This document shows, one piece after another, positions 3,872 to 64,000 of a stretch of 64,000 bases of DNA. The translations under genes were made by a program, and so were the position numbers. Below the pieces are notes generated by a model, which was not told the origin of the DNA, searched no databases, and was given only the letters and a program-made list of their open reading frames with translations. Origin of the DNA: Sphingomonas lacunae (GTDB lineage Bacteria > Pseudomonadota > Alphaproteobacteria > Sphingomonadales > Sphingomonadaceae); the NCBI RefSeq assembly GCF_012979535.1, contig NZ_CP053015.1, forward strand, positions 1,550,001 to 1,614,000, in the 5' to 3' direction. Numbering within the stretch: position 1 is the first letter of the stretch; each line of letters opens with the position of its first letter.

Positions 3872-4600
3872 GTGGCGCTGCCGCCCAGCAATCCCGACAC
3901 TTTCATGCAGGAAGTCGATGACGCGGTCCGCGCGGACCGGCTGCAAAGCTTTGTCCGCAGCTATGGGCGCGGGCTGATCGCGCTCGTCATCGTCGCGTTT
4001 CTGGCTCTTGCCGGTTGGCTCTGGTGGCAAAATGATCAGGCAAGCAAGGCAGGCGAAACCGGCCGCAATTTCTCCATGGCCCTCGAAACATTGGGGCAGG
4101 GTCGGCCCAAGGCGGCTGCGGAGCAGTTCCAGCCGATCGTCAATGATGGCTCGCCGACCTATCGCGCGCTGGCCCTGATGGCGCAGGCCAATGCCGCGCT
4201 GGCCGAAAATGATGCCCGCACCGCTGCGGCCAAGTTCGGGCTGGTCGCCAACGACAGTGGCATTGACCAGCCGATCCGCGATGCCGCGCTGTTGCGTCAG
4301 ACGCTGGTTGAATTTGACCAGATGGATCCAGCTGCGGTTGTTGCCCGCCTGCGCAATCTCGTCTCGCAGCCCGGTCCTGCCTTTGCAAGCGCCGCTGAAC
4401 TCACCGCGCTGGCCGAAATGAAGCGCGGCAATGACCGTGCGGCCGGCCAGCTCTACAAGCGTATCACCGAAGCACCCGATGTGCCGGAATCGCTCAAATC
4501 GCGCGCGCTTCAGATGGTCAGCCTGCTCGGAGCGGACGCAGCCCGCCCGGCAGCCGCGACACCTGCCGCCGCCGCTGCCACTACCAAGACCGGGGAATGA
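3872..4600 (+). CDS. Membrane-anchored TPR protein (YfgM-like), bamB operon
   Basis: A 242-residue protein with one membrane helix near residues 34-51 (GLIALVIVAFLALAGWLWW) and a periplasmic helical region of tetratricopeptide type containing YRALALMAQANAALAEND and related repeats. The C-terminus is an Ala/Pro-rich tail. It matches the YfgM group, an inner-membrane protein encoded just before bamB and der in many Proteobacteria and thought to take part in envelope protein quality control. The start is GTG at 3872, after an AAGAGGA-type binding site. Its TGA overlaps the bamB ATG (ATGA), indicating translational coupling. Confidence 0.88.
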   Translation: MALPPSNPDTFMQEVDDAVRADRLQSFVRSYGRGLIALVIVAFLALAGWLWWQNDQASKAGETGRNFSMALETLGQGRPKAAAEQFQPIVNDGSPTYRALALMAQANAALAENDARTAAAKFGLVANDSGIDQPIRDAALLRQTLVEFDQMDPAAVVARLRNLVSQPGPAFASAAELTALAEMKRGNDRAAGQLYKRITEAPDVPESLKSRALQMVSLLGADAARPAAATPAAAAATTKTGE

Positions 4601-5937
4601 CAATGCAGACCAAGGCATGGAAAATCGCCGGAACGGCCGCGTTCACCGCCGTGATGCTCAGCGGTTGCAGCATATTTGAAGGCGATGGCGGGCCGACCAC
4701 GCCGACCGTCGGCAATCGTGTGCCGATTCTCGCCAACCAGTCCGACCTCGCGGTCGATCCGACGATTGCCGGGTTGCAGATCATCCTGCCCGCGCCGGTG
4801 CCCAATGCTGACTGGACCCAGCCCGGCGGCAATTCTGCCAAGGCCATGAGCCATGTCGCGCTGCCTGCCGAACTCACCACCGCCTGGACGGCCCAGATCC
4901 GTGGCGGCAATCTGCGTGCGCGTCTGGCGGCGGCGCCAGTGGTTGCCGGTGGCACCTTGTTCGCCATTGATACCGAAGCGACCGTGCATGCGTTCAATGC
5001 CGCCACCGGTCAGCGCCTCTGGTCGACCCAGGTCGGTGATACTGAACGGGATGGCCAGCGTGCCCGTTTTGGTGGCGGTGTCAGCGCCGAAGCCGGCACG
5101 GTCTACGCCGCCAGCGGTCTGGGCGATGTCGCGGCCATTGATGCCGCCACCGGCGCCGTCCGCTGGACAGTGCATCCCGCTGGTCCGCTGCGCGGCGCCC
5201 CGACTGTCGCCTTTGGCAACATCTATGTGATGGGCCAGGATAATCAGCTGTTTGCCCTGCGCACCAGCGACGGTAACGTCGAATGGCAGGAAGCTGGATC
5301 GCTCGCCCCCGGCAGCGTGTTTGGCGTTGCCGCACCGGCAGCGGGTCAGGGGACCATCGTCGCTGGCTATTCGTCGGGCGAACTCAATGCGTACCGGTAT
5401 GAAAATGGCCGCTCCCTGTGGGGTGATGCACTGGCCCGCACCAGCATTTCCATGTCGGTGTCGACCCTGACCGATATTGATGCCGATCCGGTGATTGATC
5501 GCGGCAGGGTTTTCGCCATTGGTCAGGGCGGTCGCATGGCCGCTTATGAACTGGTCACCGGCCAGCGCATCTGGGAAATGAACCTCACCGGCATCTCGAC
5601 CCCTTGGGTGGCGGGTGAATGGGTGTTCGTGTTGACCGATGATTCCCGCATTTTCGCCATTACCCGGGCGACTGGCAAGGTTCGCTGGATTGGCCAGCTG
5701 CCCCGCTGGCGTGATGAGGAAGACCGGGAAGGGATGATCCGCTGGACCGGCCCGGTCCTGGCTGGCGGCCGCCTGATCGCCGTTTCGACCGACGGCCGCA
5801 TGGCCCAGATCAATCCCGAGGACGGCAGCGTCCAGTCGCTGACTGACATCAGCGGCCCGACCCGTCTGGCCCCGGTTGTCGCCAATGGCATGCTCTATGT
5901 GATGGACGATAATGGTCGCATCACCGCCATGCGATGA
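4597..5937 (+). CDS. bamB: Outer membrane protein assembly factor BamB
   Basis: Lipoprotein of the BAM complex, which folds beta-barrel proteins into the outer membrane. The N-terminus is a lipoprotein signal with lipobox LSGC at about residues 23-26. The rest is a beta-propeller of PQQ-like repeats, visible as recurring FAIDTEATVHAFNAATG, AIDAATGAVRW and ITRATGKVRWIG units. The 446-residue length is somewhat above the E. coli protein. It overlaps the preceding TPR gene and the following der gene by 4 bases each, so the three form one translation-coupled operon, as in many Proteobacteria. Confidence 0.94.
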   Translation: MTMQTKAWKIAGTAAFTAVMLSGCSIFEGDGGPTTPTVGNRVPILANQSDLAVDPTIAGLQIILPAPVPNADWTQPGGNSAKAMSHVALPAELTTAWTAQIRGGNLRARLAAAPVVAGGTLFAIDTEATVHAFNAATGQRLWSTQVGDTERDGQRARFGGGVSAEAGTVYAASGLGDVAAIDAATGAVRWTVHPAGPLRGAPTVAFGNIYVMGQDNQLFALRTSDGNVEWQEAGSLAPGSVFGVAAPAAGQGTIVAGYSSGELNAYRYENGRSLWGDALARTSISMSVSTLTDIDADPVIDRGRVFAIGQGGRMAAYELVTGQRIWEMNLTGISTPWVAGEWVFVLTDDSRIFAITRATGKVRWIGQLPRWRDEEDREGMIRWTGPVLAGGRLIAVSTDGRMAQINPEDGSVQSLTDISGPTRLAPVVANGMLYVMDDNGRITAMR

Positions 5938-7640
5938 ACGCGCCGGCTGACCTGCCTGTCGTTGTCATCGTCGGGCGGCCCAATGTGGGCAAATCGACCC
6001 TGTTCAACCGGCTGGTCGGCAAAAAGCTGGCGCTGGTGGATGACCGTCCCGGTGTGACGCGGGACCGGCGCGAAGGCGTCGGCCATCTGCTGGGCTTGCA
6101 ATTCCGGATTGTCGATACCGCGGGTTTCGAGGAGGATGATCCGGCAAGTCTGCCCGGTCGGATGCGCGCCCAGACAGAGGCGGCGGTGCATATGGCCGAT
6201 GTCGCCCTGTTCCTGATTGACGCCCGTGTCGGGGTGACCCCGGTCGATGCCGAAATCGCCCGCTGGCTGCGTGACAGTGATACGCCGATTGTCGTTGTCG
6301 CCAACAAGGCTGAGGGCAAGGTTGGCGCGGCAGGCGTGAGCGAGGCCTATAGCCTGGGGCTGGGCGAACCATTTGGCCTGTCCGCTGAACATGGTGAGGG
6401 CATCGTCGACCTGTTCGACGCCCTTCGACCCCATGTCGAACAGCCCGAAGAGGAAAGCGATGTCCCCGCCGGCAAGCGGCGCGGCAAGTCGCAACGCGCT
6501 ACGACCAAGGCGAAACAGGTCGCGGCCGACCTCGCCGGAGAGGCCTTGCGGGCTGATCTGGTCATTCCCGATGGCGAGGATGATGGCGAGGAAATCGTCT
6601 GGCAGGGTGAGGAGCTGGACCCGGAATCGCCGCTCAAACTGGCGATTGTCGGTCGTCCCAACGCCGGCAAGTCGACTCTGGTCAACCGTATCCTCGGCGA
6701 GGAGCGGATGATCACCGGCCCCGAAGCGGGGCTGACTCGCGATTCCATCTCGATCGACTGGATGTGGACCGCGCCCGATGGTGCGCGTCGCCCGGTCCGC
6801 CTGATTGATACGGCCGGTCTGCGCAAGCGGGCCAAGGTGCAGGACAAGCTGGAAAAACTGTCGGTCGCCGATACGCTGCATTCGGTCGCCTTTGCTGAAG
6901 TTGTCGTGCTGATGCTCGACGCCACGCTGGGGCTGGAGGCGCAGGACCTGCGTATCGCTGACCGGGTGATCGACGAAGGGCGTGCGCTGATCATCGCGCT
7001 CAACAAATGGGACGTGGCAGAGGATGGCAGCGCCCTCTATCAGGGTATCCGCGCCGCGCTCGACGAGGGACTGGCCCAGGTCAAGGGCGTCCCCCTGATC
7101 ACTGTTTCCGCCGCGACCGGCAAGGGGCTCGACCAGTTGCTCGCCATTGCCTTTGACATTCGCGAACAATGGTCGCGGCGCGTGCCGACCGGTGAACTCA
7201 ACCGCTGGTTCGAACGGGCGACAGAGGCCAATCCTCCGCCCGCGCACAAGGGTCAGCGGATCAAGCTGCGCTATATCACCCAGGCCCGCAACCGCCCGCC
7301 CAGCTTTGTGGCCTTTGGCAGCAGGGTCGACATGCTTCCGGAAAGCTATCGCCGCTATTTGGTCAACGGGATCCGCCGCGAACTTGGCTTCGGCGCGGTG
7401 CCGGTCCGGCTGACGCTGCGCGCCTCGCGCAATCCCTTTGGTGCGGCATTGCGCAAATCGGCTCATAGCGCCCCGCGCAAGGCCGAAACGAGAGGGGCAG
7501 GGGGTGGCACCGGCAAATCGGGTCGCGCCGCGGCTCCCCGGGCAGCTCCCGGCCTGCGTGCTGTGACACCTATCGGCCAGGTCCGCCGTCCCGCCAGGCC
7601 AGGGGGTAAACCTGGTGGCAAGCCGGGTCGCAAGGGCTGA
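5934..7640 (+). CDS. der: Ribosome biogenesis GTPase Der, extended form
   Basis: Double-domain GTPase needed for 50S ribosome assembly. The first G domain has GRPNVGKS (14-21), DTAG (61-64) and NKAE (124-127). The second has GRPNAGKS (240-247), DTAG (291-294) and NKWD (356-359), followed by a KH-like domain to about residue 497. At 568 residues it is clearly longer than the usual 440-490. The extra length lies in an acidic and basic linker between the G domains (about 168-233) and in a Gly/Ala/Lys/Arg-rich tail (about 498-568) ending in KPGRKG. The start overlaps the bamB stop (ATGA). Confidence 0.96.
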   Translation: MNAPADLPVVVIVGRPNVGKSTLFNRLVGKKLALVDDRPGVTRDRREGVGHLLGLQFRIVDTAGFEEDDPASLPGRMRAQTEAAVHMADVALFLIDARVGVTPVDAEIARWLRDSDTPIVVVANKAEGKVGAAGVSEAYSLGLGEPFGLSAEHGEGIVDLFDALRPHVEQPEEESDVPAGKRRGKSQRATTKAKQVAADLAGEALRADLVIPDGEDDGEEIVWQGEELDPESPLKLAIVGRPNAGKSTLVNRILGEERMITGPEAGLTRDSISIDWMWTAPDGARRPVRLIDTAGLRKRAKVQDKLEKLSVADTLHSVAFAEVVVLMLDATLGLEAQDLRIADRVIDEGRALIIALNKWDVAEDGSALYQGIRAALDEGLAQVKGVPLITVSAATGKGLDQLLAIAFDIREQWSRRVPTGELNRWFERATEANPPPAHKGQRIKLRYITQARNRPPSFVAFGSRVDMLPESYRRYLVNGIRRELGFGAVPVRLTLRASRNPFGAALRKSAHSAPRKAETRGAGGGTGKSGRAAAPRAAPGLRAVTPIGQVRRPARPGGKPGGKPGRKG

Positions 7641-59792: not shown

Positions 59793-61388
59793 ATGTCATC
59801 TCTCGGGAACGAAACGGCGGTGGCGCCGCCAATCGCTGCCGCGTCGCGTCACTTTGCCGCCTTTATAAGCTATTCCCATGATGATGAGGCGATCGCCCGC
59901 TGGCTACAGGGCAAGCTGGAAACCTATCGCTTGCCGCGCGGGCTGCGGCCGTCGGGCAGTGCGGATGTGGGTCAGCCCATGGGCAGGGACGGCGACCGGC
60001 TGGGCGCCATCTTTCGCGACCGGGAGGATTTTGCCGCCGCCACCAGCCTGTCCGACGCGATCCGGCAGGCGCTGGCGGATTCGCAGGCACTGATCGTCCT
60101 GTGTTCACCGGCTGCTCGGGCATCGGCCTGGGTCAATGCGGAGATCGAGCTGTTCCGGCAAGTGCATCCTGACCGGCCAGTGCTGGCGGCAATTGTTGAT
60201 GGCGAACCAGATGAAGCGATGCCGGCCGCCCTGTTGGCCGATGGGCGTGAGCCATTGGCAGCCGATTTGCGCAAGGTTGGCGATGGACGACGGGTGGGCC
60301 TGCTGAAGATTGTGGCGGCGCTGTGGAGCTTGCCGCTCGGTGCGCTGATCGACCGGGATTCGCGACGACGGCTGCGCACCGTGATAGCGGTCACGGTCGC
60401 CGGCGTGATCGCCATGGCAAGCATGGCAACTATGACCGCCTTTGCCATCCAGTCCCGAAACGATGCCCAGCGCCAGCGCGCTGAGGCAGAGGGGCTGGTC
60501 GAATATATGCTGACCGATCTGCGCACCCGGTTGCGCGGGGTGGGCAGCTTGTCGGTGATGAGCGCGGTCAATGATCGGGCGCTGGATTATTATCGCAACC
60601 AGGGGGATCTGGACGCCCTGCCTGACGATAGCCTGGAACGGCGTGCCCGCGTGTTGCAGGCGATGGGCGAGGACGAGATGCGCCGAGACCGGCTGGATGT
60701 GGCGCAAGAGAGGGTGCAGGCTGCCTTTGCCTCGACCGAGGCGCTGATGCGGCGTGATCCCAGCAATCCCGACCGGGTTTTTGCCCATGCGCAGAGCGAG
60801 TTCTGGATGGGGGAACTGGCCCGGCGACAGGGTGACGAGGCGGAGGGTGCGCGCCGGATGCGCAACTATGCCGTTCTGGCAGGTCGGCTGCGCGCCATTG
60901 ATCCAGACCATGTGCGGGCCTTGCGCGAAGTCGGCTATGCCAACGGTAATCTGTGTTCACTGGCCGTGCGCTCGCCCGAGCCGGTGGTCAGCAACAATTG
61001 CGCCATAGCGCTGGAAGCCATGCGGGAGGTGCGGGCGCTGCGCACCGAAGATCCGCAGGCGCAGGTTGACCTCATCAACCGGCTGACCTGGCATGGCGAA
61101 TATGAGCATCGGGCCGGCCGGATCGAGCGCGCCAATGGTGCCTGGGCCGAAGCGCTGACCCTTTCGCGGCAGCTTGTTGAGCGCAATCCGGGAAATCGCG
61201 ATTCGCTGGATATGCTGGTCGCTGTGTTGCTGACGTCCAGCAAATTCAGACTGGAAAGCGACCCGGCTGAATCGCGGCAGCAGCTCGCCGAAGCCGAATC
61301 CATCATCAATGATCTGAGCCGGTTCGACCCTAGCAATGAACGCTGGCGCCGGCTGCGCAAGGATGTTGCAGAGCTGCGGTCCCGGTAG
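59793..61388 (+). CDS. TIR-domain protein with membrane helix and TPR-like region
   Basis: A 531-residue protein. Residues about 20-175 form a TIR domain: AAFISYSHDDEAIARWLQ, FRDREDFAAATSLSD, then SQALIVLCSPAARASAWVNAEIEL, whose Glu117 aligns with the catalytic Glu of NAD-cleaving TIRs. A membrane helix follows near 195-219 (TVIAVTVAGVIAMASMATMTA). The rest is helical, with TPR-like repeats, including EAEGLVEYMLTDLRTRLRGVG. TIR enzymes break down NAD+ to trigger cell death in bacterial immunity, so this may be a membrane-bound sensor or effector. It leads the three-gene cluster. Confidence 0.9.
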   Translation: MSSLGNETAVAPPIAAASRHFAAFISYSHDDEAIARWLQGKLETYRLPRGLRPSGSADVGQPMGRDGDRLGAIFRDREDFAAATSLSDAIRQALADSQALIVLCSPAARASAWVNAEIELFRQVHPDRPVLAAIVDGEPDEAMPAALLADGREPLAADLRKVGDGRRVGLLKIVAALWSLPLGALIDRDSRRRLRTVIAVTVAGVIAMASMATMTAFAIQSRNDAQRQRAEAEGLVEYMLTDLRTRLRGVGSLSVMSAVNDRALDYYRNQGDLDALPDDSLERRARVLQAMGEDEMRRDRLDVAQERVQAAFASTEALMRRDPSNPDRVFAHAQSEFWMGELARRQGDEAEGARRMRNYAVLAGRLRAIDPDHVRALREVGYANGNLCSLAVRSPEPVVSNNCAIALEAMREVRALRTEDPQAQVDLINRLTWHGEYEHRAGRIERANGAWAEALTLSRQLVERNPGNRDSLDMLVAVLLTSSKFRLESDPAESRQQLAEAESIINDLSRFDPSNERWRRLRKDVAELRSR

Positions 61389-61416
61389 GGCGCGCAGAAA
61401 TTATGGGGAACAGAGC

Positions 61417-61956
61417 ATGAGCAGGATGTCTGTCGAGTTGACCAAACAATGGCCCGGTGCCCAGCCGCAGCTTGCATGGATTTTCAGCGTGGGTGAAACT
61501 GCGGGAAAGGCGCTGAACATCGTCTATAAAAATGCCCGCAGCGTGACCGGCGCAATCAATATGCCAGCCGAACTGGCTGCGGGCGCCGGCAACAAGGCGC
61601 CTGTCTATGCGAGTTCCCCAAACCGCAATCCGACACCGACCGCGCTCAGCCTCAAGGCCAATCAGGACCTTATTCTGGGTTTTGTGCTGGATGCGAAAAT
61701 GGGCGCGATATTTGCCGATGCGCCATTTTCCGGCGGCTACAGGGGGGCTGAGAACGATTATTATTCTGTCACCCGTGTGTCGGATACGACGGCCTATCTG
61801 GTGATCAAGGGATCGTCATTTGGTGCAGGTGACTATAGCAAGCCGTTCAATATTCACCTGGTGGCAAAGGGGACCCAGGGCAACAATGTCGCCTATGTGA
61901 CTCCTTTGATCATTGATCCTGACACGCGTTGGCCGGATGGTTGGGGTCCGCCGTGA
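61417..61956 (+). CDS. Uncharacterised protein between TIR and TPR-SLOG genes
   Basis: A 179-residue protein with no recognised domain. It starts at ATG 61417 after GGGGAACAGAGC. Sequence features are mostly beta-type: GKALNIVYKNARSVTGAINM, NQDLILGFVLDAKMGAIF, DYYSVTRVSDTTAYLVIKGSS and a C-terminal DPDTRWPDGWGPP. No signal peptide or membrane segment. It lies 28 bases after the TIR gene and 49 before the next, so almost surely is co-transcribed with them. It might be a partner or ligand of the TIR protein. Confidence 0.7.
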   Translation: MSRMSVELTKQWPGAQPQLAWIFSVGETAGKALNIVYKNARSVTGAINMPAELAAGAGNKAPVYASSPNRNPTPTALSLKANQDLILGFVLDAKMGAIFADAPFSGGYRGAENDYYSVTRVSDTTAYLVIKGSSFGAGDYSKPFNIHLVAKGTQGNNVAYVTPLIIDPDTRWPDGWGPP

Positions 61957-62005: not shown

Positions 62006-63388
62006 ATGACTGACCTGTCCCTTATCCGCCGACTGGCCCGCGTTGGTGCGGTCGAGCGGGCGTGGGCGCTGTTGGTCGATGCGGGACTGGACAGGGTGTT
62101 GGGTGATGCGCGTGTGTTGACCTTGAAGGGTCGCCTGCTCAAGGACCGGGCAATGGCCATGTCCGCGCCTGAAGAACGGCATGAACGCGATGAATTGTTG
62201 CGCGCGGCCGCCGAAGCTTATGCCGCCGCCGCTGCCTTGACCGGGGACAGCTACCCCCGGATCAATGCGGCGGCGCTGGCCCATCTGCGCGGGGACAGGG
62301 CCGGTGCTGCGGGGCAGGCGACTGAGTTGCTGGGCCTGATCGATACCGGCCACCATGGCGGCGAGACACCCTATTGGCTGGAGGCTACACGCGCCGAAGC
62401 CTATTTGCTGAGTGGCCAAGTGCCAGCAGCCGAGGCAAGTCTGGCCAAAGCGGTTGCGCTGGCCCCGCGGGCGCGGGAGGACCGCGCCATAACCCTGCGT
62501 CAATTCCGCCGGCTGTTACAGGCAGGGGGTGGCGATTGCAGCTGGCTGGACCGGTTTGCCCTGCCGCCGGTGATGCATTTCCGCGGGCCAATGGCGGTTG
62601 CGGACGATCCGGGCGCTGCCGATGTGGCGGCAGCGGTGGCCGACATAGGTCCGGGCGTGGCGATCGGCGCGCTGGCCGCGGGCACGGACATTATCGCTGC
62701 GGAAGCGGCGGTCGCGGAAGGCGCGGAGCTGCATATCGTCCTGCCCAGTGAGATTGAGGCGTTTCGCCATGGATCGGTTCTGCCGTTTGACGGCGATTGG
62801 AATGCGCGGTTCGATGCTCTGCTCGATCAGGCGGCCAGTATCGAATGGCTGGAAGAAGAAGGCGGATTGACCGACGCCGCCGTGCGCATGGCCGATGATA
62901 TGGCGATGGGCCTCGCAGGGATTGAGGCGCAGGCGGCCGATGACGAGCCCGTATTGTTGCGGGCCAGATGGGCCGGTGCGGATGCTGTTCCCAATCTGGG
63001 TGCCCCACATCGTCAGGTTCTCGTCGACCTGCCTCGTCCAGACAACATGCCGACATGCGCATTGCCGCCGCCGATGGAGCCGGTTGTAGCAGTGGCACGG
63101 GCAGGTGATGGCATGATCGAGTCCCGTTCCATCAACGATTTGGCCCAATTGCGTGGTGAATTGGCGGCAGGCGATAGCATTGATGTTGTCGTGACCACTG
63201 CCTTGCCCCTCGATCCCGCGCCGCCACGCATCGCGGCGATGCAGCAGTTGGACAATGACATGACCGTGCTGGCTTCGCGCCCGGCAGCCCTGTTGCTGTG
63301 GGCCCATTGTCCCGGCAGCCGCCCGGTCCTGGCGGGCAGCGCCATGGCGACGACTGGCGCATTCGAACTTTACGACATGCTGGTTTGA
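62006..63388 (+). CDS. TPR plus SLOG/Rossmann-like protein (TRAFs-binding domain-like)
   Basis: A 460-residue protein. Residues about 1-175 are TPR-like helices. Residues about 188-285 fit the bacterial TPR-linked Rossmann or SLOG-type domain called MAP3K TRAFs-binding domain: MHFRGPM, then VAIGALAAGTDIIAAEAAVAEGAELHIVLP and FDGDWNARFDALLDQAASI. In other bacteria such proteins occur with TIR, cyclase or caspase-type conflict genes. The domain could sense a nucleotide. Family placement is from recalled motif similarity, so moderate. ATG at 62006 chosen; the frame opens at 61913. Confidence 0.7.
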   Translation: MTDLSLIRRLARVGAVERAWALLVDAGLDRVLGDARVLTLKGRLLKDRAMAMSAPEERHERDELLRAAAEAYAAAAALTGDSYPRINAAALAHLRGDRAGAAGQATELLGLIDTGHHGGETPYWLEATRAEAYLLSGQVPAAEASLAKAVALAPRAREDRAITLRQFRRLLQAGGGDCSWLDRFALPPVMHFRGPMAVADDPGAADVAAAVADIGPGVAIGALAAGTDIIAAEAAVAEGAELHIVLPSEIEAFRHGSVLPFDGDWNARFDALLDQAASIEWLEEEGGLTDAAVRMADDMAMGLAGIEAQAADDEPVLLRARWAGADAVPNLGAPHRQVLVDLPRPDNMPTCALPPPMEPVVAVARAGDGMIESRSINDLAQLRGELAAGDSIDVVVTTALPLDPAPPRIAAMQQLDNDMTVLASRPAALLLWAHCPGSRPVLAGSAMATTGAFELYDMLV

Positions 63389-63415: not shown

Positions 63416-64000
63416 TCAGACAACCAGTTCTTCGAGCATCCGGGGGGACTGAATGACCAGCCGTCCGGCTTCGCGCCGGATGATGCCGCGACGTTCAAGG
63501 TTGGAAATGGCGCGGGACGCAGTTTCGCGGGTGGTTTGCACGCTGACCGCCAGAGCCGCGACAATCGGTGCGGGCTCAATGACATGGTCCGGACCAGCCA
63601 TTTCGAGCAGTCGGGCATGGATACGCCCGACCGCCGTCAGGCTGATGCGTGCCGCGAGCCTGTCGAGCAATGTGCCCGACTGTCGGGCATAACTGCGAGC
63701 CACGGCCAGCGCGAAGTCACTGTCCGCCAGACCCAACCTTTCGATCTGACTCGTCCCGACCGTGAGCAGGCGGGTTATGCCATGAGTGGTCAATGATGCG
63801 CTCATCGCCCGTGGACGGCGTCCGAAATGGCCGATCAGATCGCCAGGCGGGTGGGTCGCCACGACGGTGTTGCGCCCTTCCGGAGACAGGACCTCACACC
63901 GGACATTACCATCGAGAATCAACCAGTTGCTGTCGGCCTCGTCCCCCTGGTGAACCAAGGTCACAGCATGGGGGGCAATGCGGGGCTGACCCATGGCATA
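63416..64000 (-). CDS. Crp/Fnr-family transcriptional regulator, cut by the window edge
   Basis: The C-terminal HTH and most of a cyclic nucleotide-type sensor domain. The effector domain has LVHQGDEADSNWLILDGNVRCEV and HPPGDLIG, and the winged HTH has VSVQTTRETASRAISNLERRGIIRREAGRLVI. An ATG at 63994 opens the frame, but the usual N-terminal beta-roll start is missing and the frame continues to the window edge, so the gene is probably longer. No Cys cluster is visible in the part seen. It points towards the TIR cluster end and converges with it. Confidence 0.82.
   Translation of the reverse strand, partial: YAMGQPRIAPHAVTLVHQGDEADSNWLILDGNVRCEVLSPEGRNTVVATHPPGDLIGHFGRRPRAMSASLTTHGITRLLTVGTSQIERLGLADSDFALAVARSYARQSGTLLDRLAARISLTAVGRIHARLLEMAGPDHVIEPAPIVAALAVSVQTTRETASRAISNLERRGIIRREAGRLVIQSPRMLEELVV

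Follow-up and report, generated by a model that had tools for sequence, protein, structure and literature searches.

Several described prokaryotic systems and protein families come close to the locus analysed here. Thoeris combines a ThsB-type TIR protein with a SLOG-bearing effector that carries a Sir2, Macro or membrane domain. Another is a single protein, SO1698 of Shewanella oneidensis, which we take to belong to Pfam family DP-EP (PF08985, formerly DUF1888) and which, according to work attributed to Osipiuk and colleagues (J Biol Chem 2012), reportedly cuts itself between Asp116 and Pro117. Two further Pfam families, PF20301 (pNTSase1, ‘Predicted novel nucleotide synthetase’) and PF20308 (TPR-S), are said to originate from the 2020 survey of prokaryotic immune systems by Burroughs and Aravind. 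Searches of the literature covered few subscription papers; they returned nothing on PF20301, pNTSase1 or PF20308, and passing mention only of DUF1888, PF08985, DP-EP or SO1698. Passages in PMC7159879 and PMC7824862 deal with TIR and SLOG signalling in general and do not concern the family described below.

The window is a 64,000-nt stretch of the Sphingomonas lacunae chromosome, and its last three plus-strand genes form an operon at the right end. Gene 1 (59793–61388, +) encodes a 531-residue protein with a TIR domain, a hydrophobic segment and a TPR region. The TIR domain scores above the Pfam cut-offs for both PF13676 (50.8 bits) and PF08937 (ThsB_TIR, 35.8 bits), and Glu117 and Trp113 are invariant in 22 homologues. 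The second gene, which we call the slot gene, is a 179-codon open reading frame at 61417–61956 (+), separated from the stop codon of gene 1 by 28 nt. Its ATG at 61417 is preceded by GGGGA at 61405–61409 (+), read directly from the sequence as a probable ribosome-binding site; the longest frame (206 residues from 61336) was rejected as the gene start because it would overlap the TIR gene. Gene 3 (62006–63388, +) encodes a TPR-S protein with a SLOG-like domain, and its start is probably the ATG at 62006 rather than the in-frame TTG at 61913. The first-pass annotation had placed the slot gene between a TIR and a TPR-SLOG gene, and these assignments bear it out; its statement that the slot protein has no signal peptide also holds, none being visible.

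Gene 3 matches PF20308 with 39.4 bits (cut-off 27.6), which places it among the TPR-S conflict-system proteins. A G-L-A-A-G-x-D motif, from Gly236 to Asp243 in the translation from 61961, is invariant in 22 homologues. Judged by sequence, the C-terminal part (about 63020–63388) is a degenerate class III cyclase: it aligns with ten relatives of the long class (hhalign Prob 97.9, E 4.6e-13), and a detectable Guanylate_cyc domain is retained in five of the six long relatives scanned, and in L177 (L177:4663–6342) as well. A Crp/Fnr-type regulator follows on the opposite strand (63416–63994, −; 192 residues from the ATG seen in the window), with PF13545 and PF00027 above cut-off. Among the 79 loci of the L084–L163 series with at least 900 nt of downstream sequence, 73 carry a BLAST relative of this regulator within 800 nt of gene 3, convergent in 69; it is absent downstream in L092, L097, L120, L133, L143 and L157. 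The convergent gene often overlaps gene 3 by 4 nt, in Caulobacterales too, and the regulator is apparently a fourth component of the module.

The arrangement of the three genes recurs well beyond the window. A search with gene 3 gave matches in 53 of 199 genomes of the same family (Sphingomonadaceae). We fetched 51 family regions, leaving out G116, G135 and the window's own region, and 25 of them contain, on one strand, a TIR gene, a middle ORF of at least 145 residues and a TPR-S/SLOG gene; one of these 25 has two middle ORFs. A scan of named genomes with the gene 3 alignment gave 269 loci, of which the best 80 were retained; these belong to Sphingomonadales, Caulobacterales and some unplaced metagenome bins. 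A TIR gene lies upstream of gene 3 in 73 of the best 80, and a middle gene is present in 74: 70 were found by a script requiring a middle ORF with a C-terminal signature of the Asp-Pro or HGGIHP type, and four (L094, L104, L108 and L160) by eye. The window gene is thus a member of a conserved slot and not the ‘orphan’ that the first-pass annotation took it for, and most of its family is known to Pfam.

The exceptions are of several kinds. In L129 and L137 gene 3 stands without TIR or middle gene. The regions L098, L114, L121 and L153 begin at contig ends, and a contig end also accounts for the missing TIR part of L123. In the own-family set, the gap in L059 holds a 68-residue frame only, L078 has no middle gene and its TIR gene and gene 3 adjoin, the TIR gene lies elsewhere in L058, L061 and L064, and it is on the other strand in L069 and L075. 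Apparent fusions of the middle gene to gene 3 in L093, L094 and L116 were rejected, as the gene 3 frame had been extended too far and the middle gene has an ORF of its own. Two operons carry tandem middle genes (L099:3312–3971 and 4209–4898; L060:4945–5664 and 5689–6426).

Direct sequence comparison finds few relatives of the slot protein of the window. It has no match in Pfam (at E ≤ 1 or at E ≤ 10), PADLOC or NCBIfam, and a BLAST search found, besides its own genome, one of the 199 family genomes (E 1.2e-5). A direct homology search of plasmids and viral contigs gave no relatives. Against the PDB, its sequence returned only hydrogenases (E 0.08–0.1) and an epimerase (E 1.7), and a profile of the subfamily returned a capsid match (E 0.94). 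Even when 385 genomes of the class were searched with a 46-member profile, matches came solely from the window's genome and G014. As the neighbour-based search makes clear, direct and profile searches of this kind overlook divergent members.

A further set was defined by operon position. It comprised 90 slot proteins: that of the window, 75 from the named loci, and own-family proteins, which entered only if their last 60 residues were not already present. An iterated profile started from the window protein joined 76 of the 90, itself included, in five rounds, with a small database and a lenient threshold. As a control, the final profile was applied to the complete set of 4623 ORFs from the 80 loci; it recovered 65 slot proteins together with the second tandem copy in L099, a partial copy in L098 and a single off-target ORF (E 0.9). 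A loose C-terminal pattern fits 190 of 1980 other ORFs of at least 120 residues and is weak by itself, so the claim of homology rests on the profile. Fourteen of the 90 proteins stay outside the profile family, ten of them with an HGGIHPP-like end. Slot proteins of this HGGIHPP type occur in L104, L110, L123, L128, L130, L145, L156, L157, L052 and L053.

PF20301 provides the family with a name. It matches 38 of 46 aligned members (E ≤ 0.1), and the nearest named relative of the window protein, that of Sphingomonas parva (L148; phmmer E 1.5e-9), reaches 30.8 bits against a cut-off of 25. The window protein does not reach this cut-off. By iterated-profile homology and common operon slot it does belong with PF20301, and on this sequence evidence we file it as a divergent relative rather than a member. 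The earlier statement that no domain is recognisable accordingly stands for the window sequence and fails for the family. PF20301 also allows the gene order to be examined from the other side: it is above cut-off in 10 of the 199 family genomes, and by coordinates all ten matches are the slot ORF beside a TIR gene that had been found independently through gene 3. Across the phylum it is above cut-off in 3 of 398 genomes, and the only new case, G846, again has the order TIR, middle gene, TPR-S. The co-occurrence with TIR genes proposed for the slot gene is thereby upheld for the PF20301 type.

Only two residues, Asp167 and Pro168, are invariant across the 46 aligned members (codons at 61915–61920, +). 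They lie in DPDTRWPDGW, one of two blocks singled out as conserved in the first-pass annotation; for the other, GKALNIVYKNARSVTG, similarity judged by eye extends to a small number of relatives only (L048 and L055). Asp167 stands 12 residues before the C-terminal end of the window protein, and by alignment column the tail after the invariant Asp measures at most 20 residues in 42 of the 46 members. The Pro/Gly-rich tail of the window protein, residues 168–179 (61918–61953, +), is the part that cleavage at this pair would release or nick.

The fold of the slot protein had been guessed to be beta-rich, and structure prediction for a relative supports this. The model of the window protein has low confidence (pLDDT 46.9), so its fold is read from relatives at about 20% identity. 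The model of one of these, L103, built with 30 sequences, is all-beta and well defined (pLDDT 88.5, pTM 0.84). Ranks 1–12 of a Foldseek search of the PDB with this model are all SO1698 of Shewanella (E 6.8e-5 to 2.9e-3), titled in the PDB as an aspartic peptidase, with moderate scores (TM about 0.5 by query length, 10–15% identity); the next match is a multicopper oxidase (E 1.8e-2). VIA-align superimposes L103 on the best SO1698 chain with Z 10.0 and rmsd 3.0 over 115 aligned residues, and on the other chains with Z 8.9–10.0. Proteins of the Mak operon (8rqy, Z 9.1; MakD, 6tct, Z 8.9) and PixA (PF12306, Z 8.8) follow closely, so that by this model comparison the three are near ties, and the near tie with the Mak proteins slightly lowers the odds that we give to the working model set out below. 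A viral fold library gave nothing significant (best E 0.055). A PixA family search gave no match in 120 genomes, and none in its controls either. By inference from L103, the window protein is predicted to be a beta-sandwich of the SO1698/DP-EP kind.

The Asp-Pro pair may fall at a comparable place in SO1698 and in the L103 model. If the ends of the alignment are gapless, Asp116 of SO1698 lies within one residue of Asp155 of L103, the invariant Asp of the slot family. According to the PDB titles, residues Y26, D37, K98, S114, P115, D116, P117 and Q118 of SO1698 were mutated by its depositors. In 16 DP-EP proteins the Asp-Pro pair is near the C-terminus and is followed by 7–15 residues, a range into which the 12 of the window protein fit. 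Besides a Phe, only the Ser, Asp and Pro of the motif are invariant in these 16; the Ser stands two residues before the Asp, where the window protein has Ile165. Sequence profiles do not join the two families: neither the window protein nor any of the 46 aligned members matches PF08985 (E ≤ 0.1), and hhalign of the slot family against DP-EP gave Prob 4.3 and 3.0, with a control at 0.1.

The genes that precede DP-EP provide a link of a different sort. A scan of 249 genomes of the phylum gave DP-EP in three. In an order that does not belong to the window's class, 15 of 177 genomes have it, those three included, and the genes number 16 in total. For fifteen of the 16, the gene immediately before it in the operon encodes a protein with a C-terminal part recognised by an HMM for the membrane-TPR region of the gene 1 family (E 7.2e-50 to 5.5e-35); the remaining gene is the second of a tandem pair, behind one of the 15. 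The N-terminal part of this partner is composed of Trans_reg_C and nSTAND1 domains in the two proteins scanned from three long regions. No TIR part was seen upstream of DP-EP, at loci that mostly reach 1.5 kb upstream. Because DP-EP genes also follow it, the membrane-TPR chassis, and not the TIR domain, is the constant partner in the loci examined; a TIR neighbour is characteristic of the PF20301-type slot, as the first-pass annotation expected, and is not obligatory in the wider fold family. Proteins with the order Trans_reg_C, nSTAND1, membrane segment and TPR are found at L182:1743–5000, L183:2061–5321 (by eye) and L184:5485–8823. The second tandem DP-EP copy in L183 (5778–6230) starts with a signal-peptide-like segment, and the first does not. 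A PAS-GGDEF diguanylate cyclase adjoins DP-EP in L182 (5509–6462, GGDEF by Pfam) and in L184 (3903–4997, by eye).

Divergence within the operon also points to the membrane-TPR region. In 69 operons (2346 pairs), namely that of the window and those of 68 loci whose neighbouring genes were of sufficient length, we compared the divergence of the slot protein with that of six neighbouring regions. It tracks the TPR region of gene 1 best, with a rank correlation of 0.546 against 0.31–0.45 for the five other regions and partial correlations of 0.43–0.49; for the 45 operons that do not belong to the main subfamily the values are 0.452 against 0.23–0.29. Each of the six correlations exceeds those of 300 permutations, which means that shared descent contributes and may explain much of the signal. 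Rate alone does not explain the ranking, since the C-terminus of gene 3 has diverged further than the TPR region (median distance 0.82 versus 0.70) and yet less correlated (0.345).

Together, these observations suggest that the slot protein is a DP-EP-like adaptor or trigger of a TIR conflict module that acts with the membrane-TPR protein and is perhaps self-cleaving at Asp167-Pro168; we give this reading a probability of about 45%. The slot protein would be the variable component of the module, working beside the membrane-anchored TIR-TPR protein, with most of its sequence diverging along with the TPR region of gene 1 while the Asp-Pro pair before the tail stays fixed. The analogy with SO1698 suggests that the protein may itself cut the Asp167-Pro168 bond, which would nick or free the tail. 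Whether NAD+ is consumed by the TIR domain would then depend on this cleavage or on the state of the tail, and the product would be read by the TPR-S/SLOG protein. The docking of the slot protein and its control of the TIR domain are, like the cleavage, putative. The TIR domain, the SLOG-like domain and the divergence suggest defence as the purpose of the operon. Hydropathy hints, by a crude test that in gene 1 of the window picked residues 168–186, possibly part of the TIR domain, that the TPR region may be outside the cytoplasm. A strongly hydrophobic N-terminus is absent in 87 of the 90 slot proteins, and simple docking would be prevented if the TPR region were indeed extracytoplasmic.

A broader reading is that PF20301-type slot proteins and DP-EP form one superfamily of self-cleaving Asp-Pro triggers, mounted on a common membrane-TPR chassis, which is joined to a TIR NADase in one case and to a DNA-binding STAND ATPase in the other. 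We hold this to be rather doubtful. If it were true, self-proteolysis of a small, fast-diverging partner would switch a membrane immune effector, and the ‘nucleotide synthetase’ label would be wrong. The more restricted reading, of an adaptor or trigger in the TIR module, would already have practical value: the middle component of this TIR system so far carries a predicted name only, and a single Asp-Pro bond would offer a biochemical handle on a widespread system. It would also tie SO1698, a protein of solved structure, to immune-type signalling through the common membrane-TPR partner.

The slot protein could instead act as a sensor in the cytosol that uses its variable surface to bind invader proteins directly, with the Asp-Pro region a fixed structural or docking element that is never cut. 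Over the 2346 pairs the median identity is 17.8% for the slot protein, compared with 43.7% for gene 1 and 36.4% for gene 3, and the slot protein is the least conserved of the three in 92.9% of pairs, as a sensing surface might be. The short, Pro/Gly-rich tail also suits this explanation, and D37 and K98, the catalytic candidates of SO1698, have no invariant counterpart in the 16 DP-EP proteins. Among close operons, however, gene 3 varies at least as much as the slot protein (79% versus 81% in 13 pairs with gene 1 identity of at least 80%), unlike what a current arms race would give, and divergence that tracks gene 1 is expected of an internal partner too. We regard the sensor as unlikely.

Less probable still is the activity implied by the Pfam name, in which the slot protein would be a novel nucleotide synthetase whose signal is sensed by the TPR-S/SLOG protein of a TIR/SLOG conflict system. 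The name covers most of the aligned members and the neighbours resemble nucleotide-signal proteins. In addition, several polar positions of the main PF20301 subfamily (T87, K89, Y96, H130, N133, D137, D155, D157 and N160 in L103 numbering) are conserved and could form an active site. In the window protein, whose row in the subfamily alignment is divergent enough to make single columns uncertain, T87, K89, H130, D137 and N160 are replaced by F, D, K, V and W, and Y96, N133, D155, P156 and D157 are retained. The label is weakened for the window protein because the residues conserved in the main subfamily are mostly missing. Asp and Pro alone are invariant over the 46 members, and SO1698, which heads the structural matches, carries a peptidase annotation. 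An assigned, unrelated function was to count against the partnership with TIR when the gene was first annotated; the Pfam name touches on this point and is itself a prediction. Least probable is a dedicated antitoxin-like inhibitor that holds off the TIR NADase until it is lost: the slot protein does stand beside the TIR gene in nearly all operons and follows gene 1 best in its divergence, but its gene comes after gene 1 and not before it, L078 does without it, and the Trans_reg_C–nSTAND1 partner of DP-EP (two scanned) is no NADase, so that TIR inhibition is not the common denominator.

The adaptor or trigger proposed here finally has to be placed beside the known systems. The operon resembles Thoeris (ThsA/ThsB) in the TIR domain of gene 1, which is above the ThsB_TIR cut-off, and in the SLOG-like domain of gene 3. 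It differs in that gene 3 has no Sir2 or Macro match and in the presence of the additional slot protein. PADLOC gave no match for gene 3 and weak ones only for gene 1, and the Thoeris type III model reached 17.7 of 220 bits; by these sequence comparisons the operon falls outside the Thoeris definition. The likeness to DP-EP consists of SO1698 as the best structural match of L103, an Asp-Pro pair near the C-terminus and a position behind the same membrane-TPR module, whereas the slot family has no sequence-profile match to DP-EP and the window protein lacks the invariant Ser before the Asp. The domains joined to that module also differ, being nSTAND1 and Trans_reg_C (two proteins scanned) in front of DP-EP and TIR in front of the slot protein. 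The Mak-operon proteins and PixA are the next structural relatives of the L103 model, within about one Z unit of SO1698.
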